From Clostridiaceae bacterium (GTDB lineage Bacteria; Bacillota; Clostridia; DSM-8532): a DNA stretch of 54,143 bases. Below, piece after piece: positions 9,090 through 45,188 of the stretch. The notes under the pieces were generated by a model, which was given only the letters and a program-made list of their open reading frames with translations, did no database searches and was not told where the DNA came from. The position numbers and the translations under genes were made by a program. Positions within the stretch are counted from its first letter, which is position 1; each line of letters opens with the position of its first letter. The DNA is taken from the NCBI GenBank assembly GCA_012522505.1, contig JAAYKJ010000133.1, positions 1 through 54,143 of the forward strand, written 5' to 3'.

Positions 9090-9749
9090 TTAAGATTTAC
9101 TTCTGTTTCCACGCTTCTCATAGTCATTTTTGATTTCGTCACTCCAGTCCTCTGGCATTGCGCAACTTTTACGGAAAGACGTGACAGCTTCGTTCATAAC
9201 TTGAAAGTTCAACTTAATACCCTTGCTGTCTGCAAGGTAGTTCTGGGCGCGGTCTGCAGAAATGCCGAATTTTCCCGCTGTTTCAACAGCATCGATATTT
9301 GCACCGAGAAAGAGAAACTCCCATCCATATTCACTCGTCTGTCGTTTGATTAGTGCTTTGACTTTCTCTGCCGAATACTCGCTACTGGAATTTTCTTCGC
9401 CATCGGTTATGATGACGAACATCACTTTTTCTGCACGATAGTCTTTAGCAGTATGTTTTTGAGCGTTACCAATTTTTTCGATTGTCCTTCCTATTGCATC
9501 GAGAAGCGCTGTTGATCCGCCAATTTGATACTCTTTCTCGGTGATTGAACTGACCGCTTTAATATCGATACGGTCATGGAGCAGATCGTAATGATTATCA
9601 AACAGCACTGTTGTAATGAGGCACTCGCCTTCTACTGCTTTCTGTTTTTCGAGCATTGAATTGAAGCCCCCAATAGTGTCCTTTTCCAAGCCACTCATCG
9701 AGCCGCTTTTGTCCAGTATGAATACCAGTTCGGTTAATCCTTTTTTCAT
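9090..9749 (-). CDS. VWA-domain protein (TerY-like)
   Basis: This protein has 219 residues and consists of essentially a single von Willebrand factor A domain with no signal peptide, so it is cytoplasmic. The metal-binding (MIDAS) motif is complete: DKSGSMS near the N-terminus, the threonine in GGSTALLDAIG, and the aspartate in ITDGEENSS. Such small cytoplasmic VWA proteins act as metal-dependent protein-protein scaffolds. The reading frame is open for another 26 codons upstream, but AAGGAGG lies just before the ATG at 9749. It follows the macrodomain gene on the same strand by 100 bases and is likely co-transcribed. Partner proteins are not evident from the sequence. Confidence 0.88.
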   Translation of the reverse strand: MKKGLTELVFILDKSGSMSGLEKDTIGGFNSMLEKQKAVEGECLITTVLFDNHYDLLHDRIDIKAVSSITEKEYQIGGSTALLDAIGRTIEKIGNAQKHTAKDYRAEKVMFVIITDGEENSSSEYSAEKVKALIKRQTSEYGWEFLFLGANIDAVETAGKFGISADRAQNYLADSKGIKLNFQVMNEAVTSFRKSCAMPEDWSDEIKNDYEKRGNRSKS

Positions 9750-9849
9750 TGGAATGTCCTCCTTATGCTTATTATGGCATAAGGATAACATTTCCTGATG
9801 AATGAGAGGTCGCTTGGAAAGCGACAAATTTCAGACAGGAGAAATTGGA

Positions 9850-10872
9850 TTATCCCCCCAACAAGGGCAGATCATATTTGAAAAGTACCTCGTTAATCGC
9901 ATAGATATCGTATTTCCCAGTAATGATAAAATACTCTACAATCACATCAAATTTCTGGCTGTGAGACAGAGCAAAACCCGCTCGCTGTAATAGATCTTCT
10001 GTTTCATCAAGTGTTAATTCCAACGCAATGGCAAGAGCAATGGCAGTGCGTTTGCTTGGCATATATCCTTTACTCGTCCTTATTTTTGAGAACAATTTTC
10101 TGTCAAGGTTGGCTCGCTTATAGACCTCTACATCTGTCTTTCCCTTGGCATCTATCAATCTCAGAAGTGTCGTGGAAAATGGTTCGTCAAGATTCCGGAT
10201 CAAGGCGGAAATATTGCCGATTTGGGTTTCATGTATTGTTTCAGCGACTTTTGGAATCCGAACATTATACGAAATGTCAGCTTCTTCAAGCGCTTCCTTC
10301 TCAACATCAAGTAATGCGCGCCGGGTGAATTTGCGTTTTGCAACATAGTGTTCGTCAATATAACTGGCGACTTCGCCAAGCAACTTCTCACTGATTATAA
10401 ACGCTGCCTTGTCAAAGACACAGAGGAATATATCCATATCGTAGTCCGAGAGAAAGAGCTGCATTTCTGAGGTTGCAACTTTCAAGGCCTCTTTTTTCGG
10501 ATATCCATATATCCCGCTTGAGATGAGAGGAAAGGCAATGCTCTTACATTTGTTTTCGACAGCAAGCCGAAGAGAGTTCCTATAGGCAGAGCGCAGGAGT
10601 TCTTCGCTCTGTTCGGGCTCCCATTGATGGTAGACGGGGCCTGCTGCGTGAACAACGTACTTTGCAGGTAGGGCGTACCCTGGTGTAATCGTTGCCTCGC
10701 CAGTCCTGATTGGCGCTAATTTGTCGCAGGCGGCCTGCATTTCATGTGCTCCAGCTGATTGAAATATTGCACCACAAACACCGCCGCCCATTTTCAGGCC
10801 GGTGTTTGCTGCATTAACAATAGCATCAACGTTCATTTTAGGGATATCTTGACGGACGATGGTAAATGGCAT
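9850..10872 (-). CDS. Macrodomain protein with C-terminal helical domain
   Basis: This protein has 340 residues. Residues 1 to about 170 form a macrodomain that binds or hydrolyses ADP-ribose derivatives: VDAIVNAANTGLKMGGGVCGAIF supplies the ligand loops, with PAKYVVHAAGP and FPLISSGIYGYP following. Residues about 225-340 form a helical, helix-turn-helix-like domain (KLFSKIRTSKGYMPSKR to the end) that, from memory, recurs in Firmicutes beside macro and VWA proteins; I cannot verify this here. The frame is open upstream to 10956, but CAGGAGG stands before the ATG at 10872. The VWA gene lies downstream on the same strand. ADP-ribosylation-related signalling or stress response is an inference. 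Confidence 0.88.
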   Translation of the reverse strand: MPFTIVRQDIPKMNVDAIVNAANTGLKMGGGVCGAIFQSAGAHEMQAACDKLAPIRTGEATITPGYALPAKYVVHAAGPVYHQWEPEQSEELLRSAYRNSLRLAVENKCKSIAFPLISSGIYGYPKKEALKVATSEMQLFLSDYDMDIFLCVFDKAAFIISEKLLGEVASYIDEHYVAKRKFTRRALLDVEKEALEEADISYNVRIPKVAETIHETQIGNISALIRNLDEPFSTTLLRLIDAKGKTDVEVYKRANLDRKLFSKIRTSKGYMPSKRTAIALAIALELTLDETEDLLQRAGFALSHSQKFDVIVEYFIITGKYDIYAINEVLFKYDLPLLGG

Positions 10873-11637
10873 CAGCAAACCTCCTGAAAAACTTTTGCTA
10901 TTTAGGTATTTCGCAGACGCATTCTTTGTGCCCATACACCTTCTGCTTATTACCAAGGGAAACCCTTTCGCAATAATTATACGTTCATCGGAGCAAGGCT
11001 GTCAATTTACCAGCTCTTTTGCCTTCAGAAATTATACACTAACCATCCTATCTGGAGTTTTCGAAATATATCCCCAAAATGGGGATGGACAAGTAACAAC
11101 AAAGGGTTGGTCGATCCGCAAAGAAGGAACCCGCCTGAAATGTAAGAAGGGAATATGCGGTAGTTTGGAATTTGAGTTTTATAGGATTTGTATGATCCAT
11201 TATCTTGTGGTAAAGCTAAAAAGAGGATTCAATTGCTGGCTGCAAAAACCTCAATTAACTAAAGGGAACCGATTGGATAAGAATATTGCCCAGAACATTG
11301 GTGTGAGACCATATACATTAATCAAATGCTACTTCAGTAACGGGTCGAGGCTTGTGGTACGCTCCAGTTGGTACGCACCGCTAGTGGGGGATTGAACCCC
11401 ACCACTGAAGCAGCGATTTATCCCCCGCCTATTCGCGTTTATTAGCCCTCACAGCTAAAAAATACACTTCATTTATTCCTTTGCTTTAGGCTAAATAAGG
11501 CAAGGGCCTTCGGAGCGTTTTATAAATATTTGAACACAAAATTATTCTTCGGTGGAGGTAGAAACCTCCATCGAAGAATAATTATTTTACAAACATTTAG
11601 CTATAGACAAGTTACCTTCCACCCCGGAGTTTTGGTC
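10873..11637. other. 765-base gap between macrodomain and LRR genes
   Basis: The gap holds a terminator hairpin (11540-11583) for the LRR gene. An apparent plus-strand open frame starting at 10859 runs through much of it, but I see no recognisable domain, ribosome site or plausible protein. A phrase at 11442-11470 (TTAGCCC, then GCTAAAAAATACA) recurs at 15863-15890. The rest shows nothing I can name. Confidence 0.5.
11540..11583. terminator. Hairpin terminator after LRR gene
   Basis: A 19-bp stem with one wobble pair (GGTGGAGG against CCTCCATC in its core) and a six-base loop. Read on the minus strand it is followed by TTTTG; on the plus strand by ATTATTTTA. It is correctly placed to end the minus-strand LRR transcript. 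Confidence 0.72.
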
Positions 11638-12711: not shown

Positions 12712-13110
12712 TATAAAATCCTCCTTTATTCATATACTCATTAGTACTGTTTGGTAAGGTCATATTTCTGTGCGCCAAGGAGAACGAAGATGAGCCTACA
12801 GGAAGTCGGTATATCGCCATGAATCGACTGAAAGAAAAAATAATGTAATAAAAATCAAGTTTATGTAATAAATTATATCAAAATACTTTGATAATGGCAA
12901 TACCGCAATATAAAAGAAAGGACGTTATCACTTTACATAATAAACATAACATGACATGCCAGGTGCCAGATGGCTTTTCATCTTAGAAAACAGAAAAATT
13001 CTCTTCAAGGCAGAGTTGTTCGGCAAAATGATTCCATGGGAGTTGTCTGGATGGCGAACTTGCTGGTATGATAGAGATATATTTCGACAGCAAAGGAATA
13101 GAACCGTGAT
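12712..13110. other. 399-base divergent intergenic region
   Basis: This AT-rich spacer lies between the minus-strand LRR gene and the plus-strand GTPase-nuclease gene. The right end holds a probable promoter for the latter (13043-13072). I see no riboswitch or small gene. Confidence 0.5.
13043..13072 (+). promoter_or_regulatory. Probable promoter of GTPase-nuclease gene
   Basis: TTGTCT (13043-13048), an 18-base spacer and TATGAT (13067-13072). The expected transcript start is about 30 bases before the ATG, leaving no room for a tet(M)-style attenuator leader. Confidence 0.5.
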
Positions 13111-15780
13111 ATGAAAAAACTAGTGGTTGGTATATTGGCACATGTTGATGCCGGCAAGACAACATTATCGGAGAGCTTGCTGTACCTAAGCGGAAAAATA
13201 CGAAAACTGGGGCGAGTGGATAATAAGGATGCGTATTTGGACAATTTTGAGCTCGAAAGATCAAGAGGGATTACGATTTTTTCCAAACAAGCGGTTTTCA
13301 GAATTGAAGATACACAGATTACGCTGCTGGATACCCCCGGCCATATGGATTTTTCAACAGAAATGGAAAGAACACTGCAGGTTCTGGATTATGCGATATT
13401 AGTGATTAGCGGAGCTGAAGGTATACAGGGTCATACGCTAACGTTGTGGCGATTGCTTGCCCGGTATCGAATACCGGTTTTTCTATTCATCAATAAAATG
13501 GATCAGGACAGGGCTGAAGAAGAAGAACTCATCGATGAACTAAAAAGAAAGTTAAATGACGGATGTATTGCGTTCAAACACGATGATACAGATGAATTTT
13601 ATGAACAATTGGCCATGTGTGATGAAGAATTGATGGAAGCTTTCCTGCAGACCGGACAAGTGGAAACAGCGCAGATCAGCAAAGCGATATTGAAACGCAG
13701 GGTATTCCCATGTTTTTTCGGTTCTGCATTGAAAATTGATGGTGTTGAACAGTTTCTTCACGGGCTTCTGAAGTATTCAGTCAGTCCATCGTATCCAGAG
13801 ACATTTGGGGCAAAAGTGTTCAAAGTCGGAAGGGACGAACAAGGTCTCCGTCTCACATATATGAAGATTACCGGCGGAAGGCTGACCGTTAGAGATGTTG
13901 TGAGCAACGGTTCATGGGAAGAAAAAGTAAATCAGATCCGCATCTATTCCGGACAAAAGTATGATGCAGTGCCTGCTGCAGAAGCCGGTACTGTCTGCGC
14001 GGTTGCAGGACTTAGCCGGACCAGACCGGGGGATGGGCTGGGTGAGGAGAAGCCTTCGGATATTCCTTTCTTGGAGCCTGTGCTATCCTATCAGATTTTA
14101 CTTCCGGAAGGCTGCGATCCGAGGATGATGATTCCAAAACTTCGTCAACTTGGGGAAGAAGATCCGCAGCTTAATATTGTTTGGGATGAGCTGCTTCAGG
14201 AAATTCAGGTTCAGATAATGGGAGAGGTTCAAATAGAAATCCTGCAAAGCATGATACAAGACCGGTTTGGTATTGAGGTGTCCTTCGGTTCCGGCAGGAT
14301 TGTTTATAAAGAAACCATATCAGATATTGTTGAAGGGGTGGGGCATTTCGAGCCATTGCGGCACTACGCAGAGGTTCATTTGCTTATGGAACCGGGAGAA
14401 CGCGGAAGTGGTCTGCAGTTTGCGGTAGACTGCAGTGATGATGTCTTGTCGAAAAACTGGAAGAACCTCATTCTGTCTCATCTCAAGGAAAAAACGCATA
14501 AAGGGGTTCTTACAGGATCAGCAATTACAGACATGAAGATCACATTGGTTTCGGGGCGAGCACACAATAAGCATACCGAAGGTGGTGACTTTAGAGAGGC
14601 AACCTATCGTGCAGTTCGCCAGGGTTTAAAGGAATCAGAATCGATATTGCTCGAACCGTACTATTCATTCCAGCTGGAGCTTCCAGAAAAAATGGTTGGG
14701 CGCGCAATGTCTGACATCGAGAAAATGTATGGAAAATGTCAGGTGACGCAAATACATGGGGGAGTGGCAATCCTAACCGGAGACGCACCTGTTTCCACCT
14801 TTCAAAACTATCAACAGGAAGTAACTGCCTATACAAAGGGCTTGGGCAGGCTCTTCTGCACGCTGAAGGGGTATGAAATCTGCCATAATCCTGAAGAAGT
14901 GATTGCAATGATAGGCTATGATTCAGAAAGAGACACGGAGAACCCAACGGGATCTGTATTTTGTGCAAATGGAACCAGCTTTTTGGTAAGCTGGGATGAA
15001 GTGAAGGATTATATGCACGTTGAAAGCTATTTCCAGCCAAAGTCAGATTTGTTGGATGAAGCACATGAAAACCATATTCCACACGCCAGGGATAGATGGC
15101 TTGAACCCGAAGAAGTTGATAAAATCTTTAATAAAACATTTTATGCAAACCAGGGGAAAAAGCCTGCCCGTCCTAAAAGAAAGGCACCTTCAGATTACAA
15201 AAACCTGCACAATGACTATATTGGCAGACCGAAAGAAAACCGAGAGGAATATCTTCTTGTCGATGGTTATAATATTATTTTCGCATGGCCAGATCTGAAG
15301 GCCCTCAGTGAAGAAAATATGGACAGCGCCAGGACAAAACTGCTCGATTATCTGAGTAAATACCAAAGTTACCGGAAATGTCAGATTATCGCCGTGTTTG
15401 ATGCCTATCGTGTCCAGGGTCATCAAGAAGAAATCATCGATTATGAAAACATTCATGTTGTTTACACCAGGGAGGCACAAACAGCAGATCAGTTTATTGA
15501 GAAGTTTGCCCACGACAATCGAAAGAAATATAGTATAACGGTTGCTACGTCAGATGCACTGCAACAGGTTATCATAAGGGGAGCGGGCTGTGATCTGCTG
15601 TCAGCAAGGGAACTGAAGCAAAAAATTGATAGTGCAAATGATAGTGTTATCCAGACTTACCTGGAAAAACAAACACCAGATCGTAACTATTTGCAAGATT
15701 CGCTATCTGCTGATACAAAGCAACAGATGGAAGAACTAATTAGCCCAGAGAGTATGGAACAGGATCAAAGACGGGACTGA
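13111..15780 (+). CDS. Tet(M)/EF-G-like ribosomal GTPase fused to Rae1/YacP (NYN) endoribonuclease domain
   Basis: This protein has 889 residues. Residues 1 to about 650 match the size and layout of ribosomal protection GTPases (Tet(M)/Tet(O), EF-G paralogues): P-loop AHVDAGKT (10-17), RGITI switch, DTPGHMDF (74-81), NKMD (128-131) and GSALK, followed by EF-G-like domains II-V. A basic linker (about 655-705, RPKRKAPSDYK) leads to a YacP/Rae1-type NYN nuclease (about 712-850): LLVDGYN with D718 and N721, VFDAY with D764, TADQF with D793 and VATSD with D815. B. subtilis Rae1 cuts mRNA in the ribosomal A site, and Tet(M)-type GTPases bind the same side of the ribosome, so ribosome-directed RNA cleavage is the inferred role. 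Tetracycline resistance is not implied. It is a single gene with its own promoter. Confidence 0.9.
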   Translation: MKKLVVGILAHVDAGKTTLSESLLYLSGKIRKLGRVDNKDAYLDNFELERSRGITIFSKQAVFRIEDTQITLLDTPGHMDFSTEMERTLQVLDYAILVISGAEGIQGHTLTLWRLLARYRIPVFLFINKMDQDRAEEEELIDELKRKLNDGCIAFKHDDTDEFYEQLAMCDEELMEAFLQTGQVETAQISKAILKRRVFPCFFGSALKIDGVEQFLHGLLKYSVSPSYPETFGAKVFKVGRDEQGLRLTYMKITGGRLTVRDVVSNGSWEEKVNQIRIYSGQKYDAVPAAEAGTVCAVAGLSRTRPGDGLGEEKPSDIPFLEPVLSYQILLPEGCDPRMMIPKLRQLGEEDPQLNIVWDELLQEIQVQIMGEVQIEILQSMIQDRFGIEVSFGSGRIVYKETISDIVEGVGHFEPLRHYAEVHLLMEPGERGSGLQFAVDCSDDVLSKNWKNLILSHLKEKTHKGVLTGSAITDMKITLVSGRAHNKHTEGGDFREATYRAVRQGLKESESILLEPYYSFQLELPEKMVGRAMSDIEKMYGKCQVTQIHGGVAILTGDAPVSTFQNYQQEVTAYTKGLGRLFCTLKGYEICHNPEEVIAMIGYDSERDTENPTGSVFCANGTSFLVSWDEVKDYMHVESYFQPKSDLLDEAHENHIPHARDRWLEPEEVDKIFNKTFYANQGKKPARPKRKAPSDYKNLHNDYIGRPKENREEYLLVDGYNIIFAWPDLKALSEENMDSARTKLLDYLSKYQSYRKCQIIAVFDAYRVQGHQEEIIDYENIHVVYTREAQTADQFIEKFAHDNRKKYSITVATSDALQQVIIRGAGCDLLSARELKQKIDSANDSVIQTYLEKQTPDRNYLQDSLSADTKQQMEELISPESMEQDQRRD

Positions 15781-36216: not shown

Positions 36217-38214
36217 ATGAATACTGGAACAGCCATTACCAATAGCATTGATCTCTCCATACCTGGTCGTCTATGTCTTTTTGGAGAGCACTCTGATTGG
36301 GCAGGCTCATACACCAGGTTCAATTCAAATATAGTACCTGGCCAGGCAATCATCGTAGGCGTTGAGCAAAATATCAAAGCCAAGGCTGAAAAATCAAAGA
36401 ATTTGAAGATTCAATCTGTGCTTCCGGACGGTACCGAAACCGAAGTGTTTGAAGCACCAATGGATGTCAAAGTCCTTAAGGATATTGCTGCAAAGGGAAT
36501 ATTTTTTTCGTATGCAGCCGGCGTTGCCGCATATATTGTTCAATACTATAATGTTGAGGGAATAAAACTATATTGTTATGAAATGACACTTCCGATGAAA
36601 AAGGGTCTTTCATCCAGTGCAGCCATCTGTGTATTGGTTGCCAGAGCGTTTAACAAGTTGTACGATTTACGACTAAATGTACGCGGAGAGATGGATATTG
36701 CATACAGGGGTGAACTATTAACTCCATCAAGATGTGGACGATTGGATCAGGCTTGTGCATATGGCGAAAACCCCATTTGGATGACCTTCGACGGGGACAT
36801 TTTAAATGTAGAGCGAATTAATGTCGGCAAAGAACTCTACTGGGTTTTTGCTGACTTACAAGCCCACAAAGATACCAGAAAGATTTTATCGGATTTGAAT
36901 AAATGCTATCCTTTTGCCAGCAACCCAATCGAAGAAAAGGTTCATGAGGCATTAGGGCCGGATAACAGCAGGATTATTACCGAGGTAAAAAAGGCTATGA
37001 AGAAAGGAGATGCCCAAAGGATTGGTCAGCTTATGCTTCGGGCACAGAAGATTTTTGACCGGAAGGTTGCACCGGCATCTCCTGAAGAACTAAAGTCTGA
37101 AAAACTTCACACGGTACTGAACGATCCAAGGCTTCAAAAGTATGTATGGGGAGGTAAAGGTGTCGGATCGCAGGGGGATGGTTCCATTCAATTCATTGCG
37201 AAAACGAAGAAAGATCAAAAAAAGCTTGTGGAGTTTCTCAATAATCAATATGGATTGCAAGCATACACCCTAAACATCAAAAAGTGCAGCAGTGTCAGAA
37301 AAGCAGTCATTCCTGTTGCGGGTTTTGGGACAAGGATGTATCCTGCCACCCGTACTATGAAAAAAGAGCTTTTTCCTGTAATTGATAAGGACGGTCTAGT
37401 AAAGCCCGCACTGTTAATTCTTCTTGAAGAGCTTGATAATTCGGGGATAGAAGAAATTTGCCTTATTGTAGCCCAAAAAGATCGGGAAGCCATAGAAGCA
37501 ATATTTTCAGGTGACCTCTCTGACGAGCATCGGAGAAAGGTTCCTTTAGAGATGCAGGAGTATGATAGAAGAATACAGAGGATTGGCAGGAAAATCTCTT
37601 TTGCCTATCAAGACGAAAGGCTTGGATTTGGTCATGCGGTGTATCAAAGCAGAGATTTTGCAAATGGTGAGCCAGTTCTCCTTATACTGGGAGACCATTT
37701 GTTTTCTTCAACATGTGATGAACCTTGCGCAGTCCAATCAATAGAGGCCTATGAGCTTTCGGGAGGAAAACTTACAGTTCTAATTTCTGAGGTTTCTCTT
37801 CAGCATATTTCAAAGCATGGTGTTGTAACTGGATATTGGACAAACGAGGAAGAATCGTATCTTGCAGCTACAGGAATTTTCGAAAAACCATCCATCGATT
37901 ATGCTAAGAAAAACCTTGCCGTCAAAATGAAAAACGGGGATACAAAATTCTTTGCGGTTTTTGGGCAGTATATTTTAACTCCGGAAGTTTACGAAATCTT
38001 GGAAAGGAACATACGTGAAGAACGAGTTGAAAATGGTGAATATCAGTTGACGCCAGTGCTCAATGAAATACTGAATACCAAAGGTATGATCGCTGCTGTT
38101 CCGAAGGGCAAGCGGTTTGATATTGGAAATCCTGAAGCATACAGGGATACAATTCGTAGTTTTTTCATCATGCATAACCAAGATCACAGGTACATATCAA
38201 AGTCCACTGAATAG
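36217..38214 (+). CDS. Bifunctional GHMP sugar kinase - sugar-1-phosphate nucleotidyltransferase
   Basis: This protein has 665 residues. Residues 1 to about 355 are a GHMP kinase of galactokinase type: SIPGRLCLFGEHSDWAG (motif 1), PMKKGLSSSAA (129-136, ATP loop) and VWGGKGVGSQGDGSIQF (motif 3). Residues about 360-655 are a GalU-like nucleotidyltransferase: VIPVAGFGTRMYPATRTMKKELFPV with the nucleotide loop G369-R373, then LILGDHLF and GQYILTPEVY. The two halves would take a free sugar to its 1-phosphate and then to a UDP- or other NDP-sugar, a salvage arrangement analogous to the Bacteroides Fkp fucose enzyme. The sugar (galactose, glucuronate, arabinose) is undetermined. GGGGG precedes the ATG. 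Tandem repeats lie upstream. Confidence 0.88.
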   Translation: MNTGTAITNSIDLSIPGRLCLFGEHSDWAGSYTRFNSNIVPGQAIIVGVEQNIKAKAEKSKNLKIQSVLPDGTETEVFEAPMDVKVLKDIAAKGIFFSYAAGVAAYIVQYYNVEGIKLYCYEMTLPMKKGLSSSAAICVLVARAFNKLYDLRLNVRGEMDIAYRGELLTPSRCGRLDQACAYGENPIWMTFDGDILNVERINVGKELYWVFADLQAHKDTRKILSDLNKCYPFASNPIEEKVHEALGPDNSRIITEVKKAMKKGDAQRIGQLMLRAQKIFDRKVAPASPEELKSEKLHTVLNDPRLQKYVWGGKGVGSQGDGSIQFIAKTKKDQKKLVEFLNNQYGLQAYTLNIKKCSSVRKAVIPVAGFGTRMYPATRTMKKELFPVIDKDGLVKPALLILLEELDNSGIEEICLIVAQKDREAIEAIFSGDLSDEHRRKVPLEMQEYDRRIQRIGRKISFAYQDERLGFGHAVYQSRDFANGEPVLLILGDHLFSSTCDEPCAVQSIEAYELSGGKLTVLISEVSLQHISKHGVVTGYWTNEEESYLAATGIFEKPSIDYAKKNLAVKMKNGDTKFFAVFGQYILTPEVYEILERNIREERVENGEYQLTPVLNEILNTKGMIAAVPKGKRFDIGNPEAYRDTIRSFFIMHNQDHRYISKSTE

Positions 38215-42215: not shown

Positions 42216-45188
42216 ATGTCGGAAGGTTCGATTAAGTCTGAAAGAGAAAGAGTTCCCTATTGGGATAATATCAAAGGAATCCTGATTCTTCTGGTGGTTT
42301 TTGGCCATTTTATATGGGGCTATATGGGTACGGGTCTTGCTGGTGTCATCCTCAGCTTCATATATATCTTCCATATGCCTGCTTTTGTTTTTGTGTCGGG
42401 CTTTTTAAGCAAAAGTGAGCACTCCCGATCAAAGCAATCTCTTATTAAGCTGGCATTGATATACATTCTTTTTAATACCACTATCATGATCGTAAGCGTC
42501 GCTGTGTTTGGATCGTCTTTTCAGCTACTGACACCCAGCTATTCATTCTGGTTTCTATTGTCCCTGATCATATGGCGCGCAGTTGAGAAATACATACCGC
42601 AATCCAATCTTTTCATCATCGTTTGCGTTGCTGCTGCGATCCTGATTGGGTTTTGGAAGGATGTTACCAATGTCCTTGCGATTGCCCGTACGATTGCGTT
42701 TTTCCCGTTTTTTCATATTGGGTACAAATTGCCTGCTGAAAAAACACGTCACCTCATATATCATCGCAAACCTAAAATTTATATCATAGGAATATTGTCA
42801 CTGCTGTATGCTGCTCTCCTGTCGGTTCTGTTTTTAAACAGGAATCCCTGGCTGGGCGAAACTGATTTTCTGATGAATAGCTACAGTTCTGTAACGGATG
42901 CCATTACCAGAATAACACTATTGTGTCTGGCCGGTTTAGTGACCGCTGCCCTTGTTCTTCTAGCCCCTGTAAAGCCTATACCGCTTCTGTGCAAATGGGG
43001 CAAAAATTCATTATCCATATATGTTTTACATCGGTTTATCACTTTCGCATACGCAAAGAGTTTTCCTGCTGCGACATATTCAGATTATTACATTATCTAT
43101 GCATTTGGCGCGGCTTTCATAACTACTCTTGTTTTGGGATCGGACATGGTCGCCGGTAAGTTCAACCAATTCATTAACAAAGCCATGCAATTTTTCGCAT
43201 TTAATGAATTATATGCTAAGAAAAAGACGAAACGAGTTGCTGCCATAGTATCCTTACTCCTCCTGTTCCTGATGCTGCCAATGTTGCCCAAAATTCAACC
43301 TGCCCGGAAAGCGACGGTACAAGCAAACTTGAGCCAGCAAAATTTTGACGATGTTATTCACTCAGTAATCACCAGTGAGCAGGAGGCAGCGCTAAAGGAT
43401 GCCGTTACCATTGCTTTTGTCGGGGATTTGATTCTACTACAGGATCAGGTCAGAAATGCTTATCAGGATTCCACAGGTGAGTATGATTTTACGCCCATGT
43501 TTGCATATACGAAAGATTATCTGACCGAAGCGGATTTAGCTATCGGGATTTTTGAAGGCCCGATGGCCGGGGAAGAAGTCGGATACTCCACAAGCAATTT
43601 CGGAGATGGCATACCGCTTTATCTGAATTACCCAGATGCATTTGCATATGCTGTTAAGGAATCGGGCATCGATCTGGTGTCCACCGCGAACAATCATCTT
43701 CTGGACAAAGGGGAAGAGGGGGCAATGAGGACCCTGGATGTCCTGGATCAGGTAGGGCTGATGCACGTAGGCTCATGGCGTAATTCTTCTGAAAAGGCCT
43801 CGGTTCCGGTGATTGAAGTAAGAGGAATCCGGATCGCTTTTTTTGCCTATACATATGGCAGCAATTACTATAAAGGTGAATACTTTCTGCGGGAGAACCC
43901 ATCGCTGACATCGATTCTGGCAGACCCATCGGATGAATATTTTGAAGAAGTAAAAATGATGGTCCTGAATGATTTTCAAAGGATCAGGGAAATGGAGAAT
44001 CCGCCGGATAAAATAGTGGTTATTCCGCATATGGGGACACAATTTTCCCACGAAACCGACCTTTATCAAGATACATGGAACAATATTTTTGTGGAGGCAG
44101 GCGCGGATATAATTCTGGGTGATCACGCCCATGCTGTACAGCCGATTGAATTTCGGCGGGCAACAGATAAAGCGGGTAAGGAGAAACTTACTGTCATTGT
44201 CAATTGTCCAGGGAATTTCGCAAACTCATATACGGAAAAGAATGGGGATGCTACAGCGATTGTAGAAATATTCCTCGATCCCATAGATAAAAAAATTATA
44301 TGTGCAGGCGTGGTTCCCATGTATACTCAATGCCCCATCAACGGAAATTATCGTGCACTCCCCATTTATAGTATCGTCAATGACCACGTGCTGCAGGGAG
44401 AAATTAGCAGATACGAGTTCGAGCGGGTGGAACAGGTGGTTAACACGGTCACATCCGTCATGCTGGGGACGCCATTAACTATCGACCAGATACAGGAAAG
44501 ACATTATTTGTTTCCGGAAGGATATGTTAGGCAGGAGGTATGCCCTATAAAAATTACTGAGGATATGAGAAACACGGTATTATTCGGGTTGTTGTCTGAA
44601 GCGAAATCAGTCTGTTTTGTTGGTGACAGCCTGACAGAAGGAACAAAAAACGGTGGTTATGGCTGGTATGAACCGCTGGTTGCTGCGTTTCCCGACCTGA
44701 TCGTATACAAGCAGGCTTGGGGAGGTGGGACGACTCGTACACTTATTGATAATACAAAAACGATATTGGCCAATAATGCACAATTGTACGTGATCGCTAT
44801 TGGAACCAACGATATCAGGTACCGGGATGAGCAGATATGTGCTATGGATAAAGAAAGCTATATAAAAAACATTGATACGTTGATAGGTAAAATTCTGGAT
44901 GGAAACCCTGAAGCTAAGTTTGTCTTTATAAGCCCTTGGCTTGCCCAGGCGAATGATCCCTATACAAGAGTATCTATTGAGGAGCGGGATGAGATGTTGC
45001 ACGAATATGGAGAAGCACTTCGAAGCTACTGTATTATGAATGGGCATTTGTATATCAACCCCAATCCTTCCCTCAAAGCATTGTTAACAAAATACCAACC
45101 ATCGGATTATCTACTGGATCATATTCATCCTAATGCAGGCAAAGGGATAGCATTATACAGTGAAAAGGTTTTGGAGGCAAGCCAGTAA
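42216..45188 (+). CDS. Triple fusion: acyltransferase-3, CapA-like phosphoesterase fold, SGNH esterase
   Basis: This protein has 990 residues. Residues 1 to about 375 are a membrane acyltransferase-3 (OafA/YrhL-like) domain with about ten helices, starting YWDNIKGILILLVVFGHF with the catalytic histidine. Residues about 395-735 are a CapA/PGA_cap domain: FVGDLILLQDQ, TANNHLLDKG, IPHMGTQFSHET and LGDHAHAVQPIE. Residues about 795-990 are an SGNH hydrolase with D804-S805 in GDSLTEG, N865 in GTNDIR, and D968/H971 in DHIHPN. Acyltransferase-SGNH fusions modify surface sugars; CapA is tied to poly-gamma-glutamate synthesis or export. The three together suggest addition and trimming of acyl groups on an extracellular polymer. 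The neighbouring gene is an acyl-CoA synthetase-like enzyme. Confidence 0.9.
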   Translation: MSEGSIKSERERVPYWDNIKGILILLVVFGHFIWGYMGTGLAGVILSFIYIFHMPAFVFVSGFLSKSEHSRSKQSLIKLALIYILFNTTIMIVSVAVFGSSFQLLTPSYSFWFLLSLIIWRAVEKYIPQSNLFIIVCVAAAILIGFWKDVTNVLAIARTIAFFPFFHIGYKLPAEKTRHLIYHRKPKIYIIGILSLLYAALLSVLFLNRNPWLGETDFLMNSYSSVTDAITRITLLCLAGLVTAALVLLAPVKPIPLLCKWGKNSLSIYVLHRFITFAYAKSFPAATYSDYYIIYAFGAAFITTLVLGSDMVAGKFNQFINKAMQFFAFNELYAKKKTKRVAAIVSLLLLFLMLPMLPKIQPARKATVQANLSQQNFDDVIHSVITSEQEAALKDAVTIAFVGDLILLQDQVRNAYQDSTGEYDFTPMFAYTKDYLTEADLAIGIFEGPMAGEEVGYSTSNFGDGIPLYLNYPDAFAYAVKESGIDLVSTANNHLLDKGEEGAMRTLDVLDQVGLMHVGSWRNSSEKASVPVIEVRGIRIAFFAYTYGSNYYKGEYFLRENPSLTSILADPSDEYFEEVKMMVLNDFQRIREMENPPDKIVVIPHMGTQFSHETDLYQDTWNNIFVEAGADIILGDHAHAVQPIEFRRATDKAGKEKLTVIVNCPGNFANSYTEKNGDATAIVEIFLDPIDKKIICAGVVPMYTQCPINGNYRALPIYSIVNDHVLQGEISRYEFERVEQVVNTVTSVMLGTPLTIDQIQERHYLFPEGYVRQEVCPIKITEDMRNTVLFGLLSEAKSVCFVGDSLTEGTKNGGYGWYEPLVAAFPDLIVYKQAWGGGTTRTLIDNTKTILANNAQLYVIAIGTNDIRYRDEQICAMDKESYIKNIDTLIGKILDGNPEAKFVFISPWLAQANDPYTRVSIEERDEMLHEYGEALRSYCIMNGHLYINPNPSLKALLTKYQPSDYLLDHIHPNAGKGIALYSEKVLEASQ

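Follow-up and report, generated by a model that had tools for sequence, protein, structure and literature searches.

The 889 aa protein encoded at positions 13111-15780 of Clostridiaceae contig JAAYKJ010000133.1, of which the whole 54,143 bp stretch analysed is here called the window, joins a Tet/EF-G-like translational GTPase to a C-terminal Rae1-type endoribonuclease. It is probably the lineage's own Rae1, tethered to a GTPase and taking over from the free enzyme encoded in the mrnC-rlmB-rae1-sigH operon. Proteins of this architecture were already known: Atkinson 2015 (PMC4342817) described 'Tet proteins' from ten Clostridiales that carry a YacP-like NYN domain, with a proposal of RNase-based resistance. 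The window protein comes from a clostridial genome, has its YacP-like NYN domain after a Tet/EF-G-like GTPase and belongs to the same set. The passages of Atkinson 2015 on the fusions give the domain observation and the suggestion of resistance, without displacement of Rae1, an empty site, a sister group or a missing loop. New here are the mutual exclusivity of fused and free Rae1, the empty rlmB-sigH site, an unfused sister GTPase and the missing SPVST loop. A literature search that did not reach the main Rae1 papers returned no functional follow-up on the fusion.

The open reading frame begins with ATG, and its frame, length and coordinates are exactly those initially annotated. Pfam assigned six domains, every one above its curated cut-off and far beyond chance expectation (Table 1). 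The window protein has the GTPase motifs first read from the sequence (AHVDAGKT, DTPGHMDF and NKMD), and an alignment of 103 distinct fused homologues shows hardly any variation in them. The C-terminal part had been likened to the text of Bacillus subtilis Rae1, and the NYN_YacP domain is real, but the 'HVATSD' quoted for it is the B. subtilis wording and the window protein has 'TVATSD'.

Table 1. Coordinates of the fused gene and its features in the window
Feature	Position	Strand	Details	Basis
CDS	13111..15780	+	889 aa; Tet/EF-G-like translational GTPase and Rae1 (NYN_YacP) endoribonuclease domain	
G domain, GTP_EFTU	13123..13776	+	residues 5-222; AHVDAGKT, RGIT, DTPGH, NKMD and GSA motifs	Pfam (E 7.6e-52); near-invariant in 103 homologues
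EF-G domain II, EF-G_D2	13810..14040	+	residues 234-310	Pfam
EF-G domain III, EFG_III	14074..14289	+	residues 322-393	Pfam
EF-G domain IV, EFG_IV	14293..14637	+	residues 395-509	Pfam (E 4.9e-19)
Domain IV tip loop	14554..14601	+	residues 482-497, GRAHNKHTEGGDFREA; family-specific, replaces Tet(M) YYSPVSTPADFR	alignment
EF-G domain V, EFG_C	14647..14889	+	residues 513-593	Pfam
Post-domain V extension	14890..15018	+	residues 594-636, ending ...WDEVKDYMH; common to unfused sister GTPases, which end near there	
Linker	15019..15249	+	residues 637-713; predicted disordered 643-709 (pLDDT about 30-40); second half basic	
NYN_YacP / Rae1 endoribonuclease domain	15253..15738	+	residues 715-876	Pfam (E 4.2e-53; 180.2 bits, cut-off 24.6), Foldseek
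Asp718 codon	15262..15264	+	B. subtilis Rae1 D7	alignment
Asp764 codon	15400..15402	+	Rae1 D53	alignment
Asp793 codon	15487..15489	+	Rae1 D81	alignment
Asp815 codon	15553..15555	+	Rae1 D104	alignment

The full-length architecture is conserved across the 103 homologues, and all four active-site-type aspartates, which align with D7, D53, D81 and D104 of B. subtilis Rae1, are retained in 103/103. Also invariant in the nuclease are N721, T786, T791, A792, I796, E797, V811, S814 and Q819. On the GTPase side, few or no exceptions occur at A10, D13, G15, K16 and T17 of the P-loop, at T55, at T75-H78 and at K129, and both halves are thus strongly constrained. The database matches include 80 named relatives with the fusion, nearly all from Clostridia/Bacillota. 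The closest named homologue (L027; 73%) is filed under Calditrichales bacterium MX18-03, an organism far from Bacillota, which reflects either horizontal transfer or a wrong label. A relative from the same genus (L024/L025; G020:C15) has an apparent frameshift within the nuclease domain of its fused gene, due to sequencing error or decay.

Modelled alone, the NYN domain reached a pLDDT of 86.3, and Foldseek matched it to just three PDB chains at E ≤ 0.001, all of B. subtilis Rae1 (5mq9, 5mq8; E 1.6e-12 to 5.3e-11); among viral protein models, none matched the nuclease fold at that threshold. B. subtilis YacP/Rae1 is the best solved relative of the C-terminal part, with about 31-36% identity in the structural alignment. 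They share the NYN fold, the four aligned aspartates and occurrence as a single copy per genome, but the B. subtilis enzyme stands alone, at about 170 aa, and its gene is next to rlmB (yacO), whereas the window form is one domain of a much longer protein encoded elsewhere. They also differ at the position of R118 of B. subtilis Rae1, which is Arg in 25/27 free Rae1 proteins and mostly Leu in fused forms, so that contacts with the ribosome or the substrate may differ. A part in the maturation of rRNA and tRNA has been suggested for NYN domains (cited in Atkinson 2015, PMC4342817), and an RNase that matures or degrades rRNA or tRNA, positioned on the ribosome by the GTPase, would agree with that proposal. 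We consider this very unlikely, as sequence, fold and the pattern of replacement all assign the nuclease specifically to the Rae1 family, and Rae1 of B. subtilis is an endonuclease whose target is mRNA in the A site of the ribosome (PMC12320835; PMC6613710).

Replacement of free Rae1 by the fused protein is well supported. The only NYN_YacP domain in the window's genome is the fused copy. Among 398 genomes sampled evenly across the phylum, NYN_YacP was found above cut-off in 215, about half of the sample having none, and the fusion, identified independently via its GTPase half, was found in 28. None of these 28 has a second NYN_YacP, against about 14 co-occurrences expected under independence (Fisher p = 1.6e-8, or ~1e-4 when each of 13 families is counted once, which corrects only partly for kinship). 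Members of the Rae1 family are habitually, though not by strict definition, free small proteins encoded between rlmB and sigH, and free rae1 lies between these genes in 24/24 sampled loci. The fused form departs from this in being part of a larger protein and elsewhere in the genome. Of 16 genomes with the fusion that were examined, 13 have sigH immediately after rlmB, at distances of -21 to 288 bp, and a translated search of the rlmB-sigH site in those 13 found no remnant of rae1. As about half of the phylum sample lacks NYN_YacP, an empty rlmB-sigH site is not in itself proof of replacement, and the weight of the argument rests on the complete lack of co-occurrence.

The same pattern is seen within families. 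The window's genome has rlmB-X, with rae1 missing and the fusion present, while a relative from the same family (G018; assembly 86% complete) has rlmB-rae1-X and no fusion, X being the corresponding gene in both. In family f60, too, both kinds occur, the fusion in G247 and free Rae1 in other genera. In the NYN tree, the fused nuclease domains make up one side of a branch (support 100/98; 100% of 200 bootstrap trees), which is consistent with a single fusion event. The gene is absent from four nearly complete relatives in the window's family and is thus dispensable.

The GTPase half was initially called a ribosomal-protection type. The five EF-G-like domains and intact GTPase motifs of tetracycline ribosomal protection proteins are all present, the nearest solved relatives of residues 1-590 are Tet(O) and Tet(M), and identity to these is about 30%. 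The label itself is not supported. Scores against the curated NCBIfam models fall short by a wide margin (tet_protect, 439 against a cut-off of 775; TetM/W/O/S, 303 against 1100), and the window protein has GRAHNKHTEGGDFR where Tet(M/O/S/W) have GLYYSPVSTPADFR. In Tet proteins, the loops of domain IV dislodge tetracycline (Atkinson 2015, PMC4342817). At the tip of domain IV, the window protein has AHNKHTEGGDFR, while Tet(M), Tet(O), Tet(S) and Tet(W) have YYSPVSTPADFR. The SPVST loop is kept in Tet(M/O/S/W) and in the pGJTET1 protein, and none of the examined members, fused or unfused, has it. The replacement loop is itself conserved, with H485 in 101/103, T489 in 103/103 and D493 in 101/103 fused homologues. 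Unlike Tet(M) and Tet(O), the window protein also has the extension after domain V and the nuclease domain. In a tree of the GTPase part, the fused proteins form one group (SH-aLRT 99) with unfused proteins of about 650 aa as its sister (98), and Tet(M) and Tet(O) lie elsewhere. From these comparisons the half would best be described as a non-tetracycline Tet/EF-G-like GTPase, and its placement as Tet(M)-type in the strict sense is not supported. A more distant 669 aa GTPase (L172, G365) with the loop GKHHLEHTHGGDFR branches outside the fused and unfused groups and possibly belongs to another Tet-like subfamily.

These differences bear on the suggestion of Atkinson 2015 (PMC4342817) that the fusions confer resistance. 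There, the GTPase would dislodge an A-site drug, tetracycline or another, in the fashion of Tet(M), with the RNase adding to the effect, and this agrees both with Tet(M)/Tet(O) being the nearest solved structures and with the TetM/TetW/TetO/TetS family labels of relatives in public records. We nevertheless regard an antibiotic response as unlikely, given the absent tip loop, the missed cut-offs, the replacement of a chromosomal housekeeping RNase and the lack of conserved neighbours. No conserved neighbour gene family was found among 81 loci, where the best flanking cluster reached 17/81 and the clusters resemble common ABC-transporter and kinase families. In the window, the adjacent genes encode a leucine-rich-repeat protein, a macro-domain protein, a VWA-like protein and functions in sugar metabolism. 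PADLOC models returned no match, and with no conserved neighbours either, the defence role first entertained for the protein is not borne out; the context gives no pointer to a defence or resistance island.

The unfused sister GTPases are annotated as 'TetM/TetW/TetO/TetS family' or 'translation factor GTPase family' proteins and include examples on Ligilactobacillus salivarius megaplasmids. They are 41-50% identical to the window GTPase and share the same kind of tip loop (GGDFR) and the same post-domain V extension with the fused proteins, but stop at about ...W..(x)..MH and have no linker and no nuclease. Of the six sampled genomes with an unfused sister GTPase, four also carry free Rae1 (G337, G209, G233 and G315), and the other two (G343 and G388) have the GTPase and no NYN_YacP. 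The fusion can be read as a Rosetta stone that predicts a Tet/EF-G-like GTPase working with Rae1, and the unfused GTPases that co-occur with free Rae1 are candidate partners. The displacement of Rae1 and the existence of an unfused, partner-like GTPase make the selective admission of Rae1 to A sites directly testable.

Two relatives illustrate the annotation. One unfused relative on an L. salivarius megaplasmid (L186:6001-7920) is labelled as TetM/TetW/TetO/TetS tetracycline resistance and lacks the Tet tip loop, and a fused relative on an Agathobacter rectalis plasmid (L187:3974-6775) has the same family resistance label. Both labels are likely over-annotation. Reports of a tetracycline phenotype in L. 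salivarius were considered as evidence on the unfused relative and set aside, as tet(M) was reported there together with tet(L). Among gut clostridia and lactobacilli, many genes labelled 'TetM/TetW/TetO/TetS' may encode translation factors, which would affect resistome counts.

Domain IV of EF-G and of Tet(M) enters the A site. As domain IV and Rae1 would claim the same space there, the two halves of the fused protein would be expected to act in order, GTPase first and nuclease second, which is the main refinement of the initial proposal that the GTPase delivers or gates the nuclease. By analogy with B. subtilis Rae1, we infer that the fused protein cuts in the A site, and we infer too that its targets are stalled ribosomes and that cutting is coupled to GTP hydrolysis. 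On a stalled ribosome with no productive tRNA in its A site, the GTP-bound GTPase would dock at the factor-binding site, and the tip of domain IV would clear or probe the A site. Once GTP is hydrolysed and domain IV withdraws, the nuclease on its tether would move into that A site, or into the one of an adjacent ribosome, and cut the mRNA there. Tentatively, the protein may then be a machine timed by GTP: it would recognise stalled ribosomes, clear their A site and cut the mRNA, one molecule passing the A site from its domain IV to its nuclease. That the fused form displaces free Rae1 in many gut and soil clostridia suggests that these bacteria may use it to cut mRNA on stuck ribosomes, and the role in ribosome quality control that was first put forward is plausible for a genuine Rae1-type nuclease fused, and conserved at full length, with a GTPase of the EF-G/Tet superfamily.

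The full-length AF2 model (mean pLDDT 79.7, pTM 0.61; nearest PDB matches, EF-G structures) is disordered over residues 643-709, with no confident linker structure and no fixed position of the nuclease relative to the GTPase or the A site. A linker that is long, variable in length (64-144 residues in homologues) and predicted to be disordered is what would be expected of an ordinary Rae1 carried on a paralogous GTPase with its own job, the link serving only co-expression or proximity to the ribosome; free GTPase and free Rae1 also occur separately in other genomes. This seems to us an improbable account of a fusion that is kept across many families, with split or broken copies only in a few draft assemblies and a linker whose second half is basic in 101/103 homologues (residues 675-713; median net charge +7). 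The linker had been described as basic; that holds for the second half, and the whole 77 residues are balanced, with 15 K/R and 15 D/E. A long flexible linker also fits the sequential action of GTPase and nuclease proposed above, or cutting on the ribosome next to it.

Cutting in the A site would be expected to be followed by the action of a rescue system. Neither SmpB nor tmRNA was found above cut-off in the window's genome, which is 99% complete (G000:C134, C139, C128), and this counts against the proposed reading. The SmpB and tmRNA genes are often neighbours, so one assembly gap could remove both; real loss is the alternative.

Upstream of the fused gene (12712-13110), an Rfam search of the window gave no match for a regulatory leader, and a leader there was rejected as a candidate, with promoter and terminator counts near the shuffled expectation and a leader peptide not demonstrated. 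Inside the CDS, a perfect 7-bp hairpin with a T run (13461-13477) is one of four terminator-like sites, against 2.5 expected, and is probably due to chance.

The fusion was also found on two unverified, unannotated 'Bacteriophage sp.' contigs from human faeces (L242:5421-7958 and L243:8001-10520), a case of phage carriage or mis-assignment. Elsewhere in the window, the VWA-like protein, a weak match, is encoded beside the macro-domain protein, which has a long C-terminal extension (9090-10956). Inspection by eye also picked out a 665 aa frame that seems to combine a GHMP-type sugar kinase with a GalU-like nucleotidyltransferase (36217-38214), and a 990 aa frame that seems to join a membrane acyltransferase to CapA-like and SGNH-hydrolase-like parts (42216-45188).
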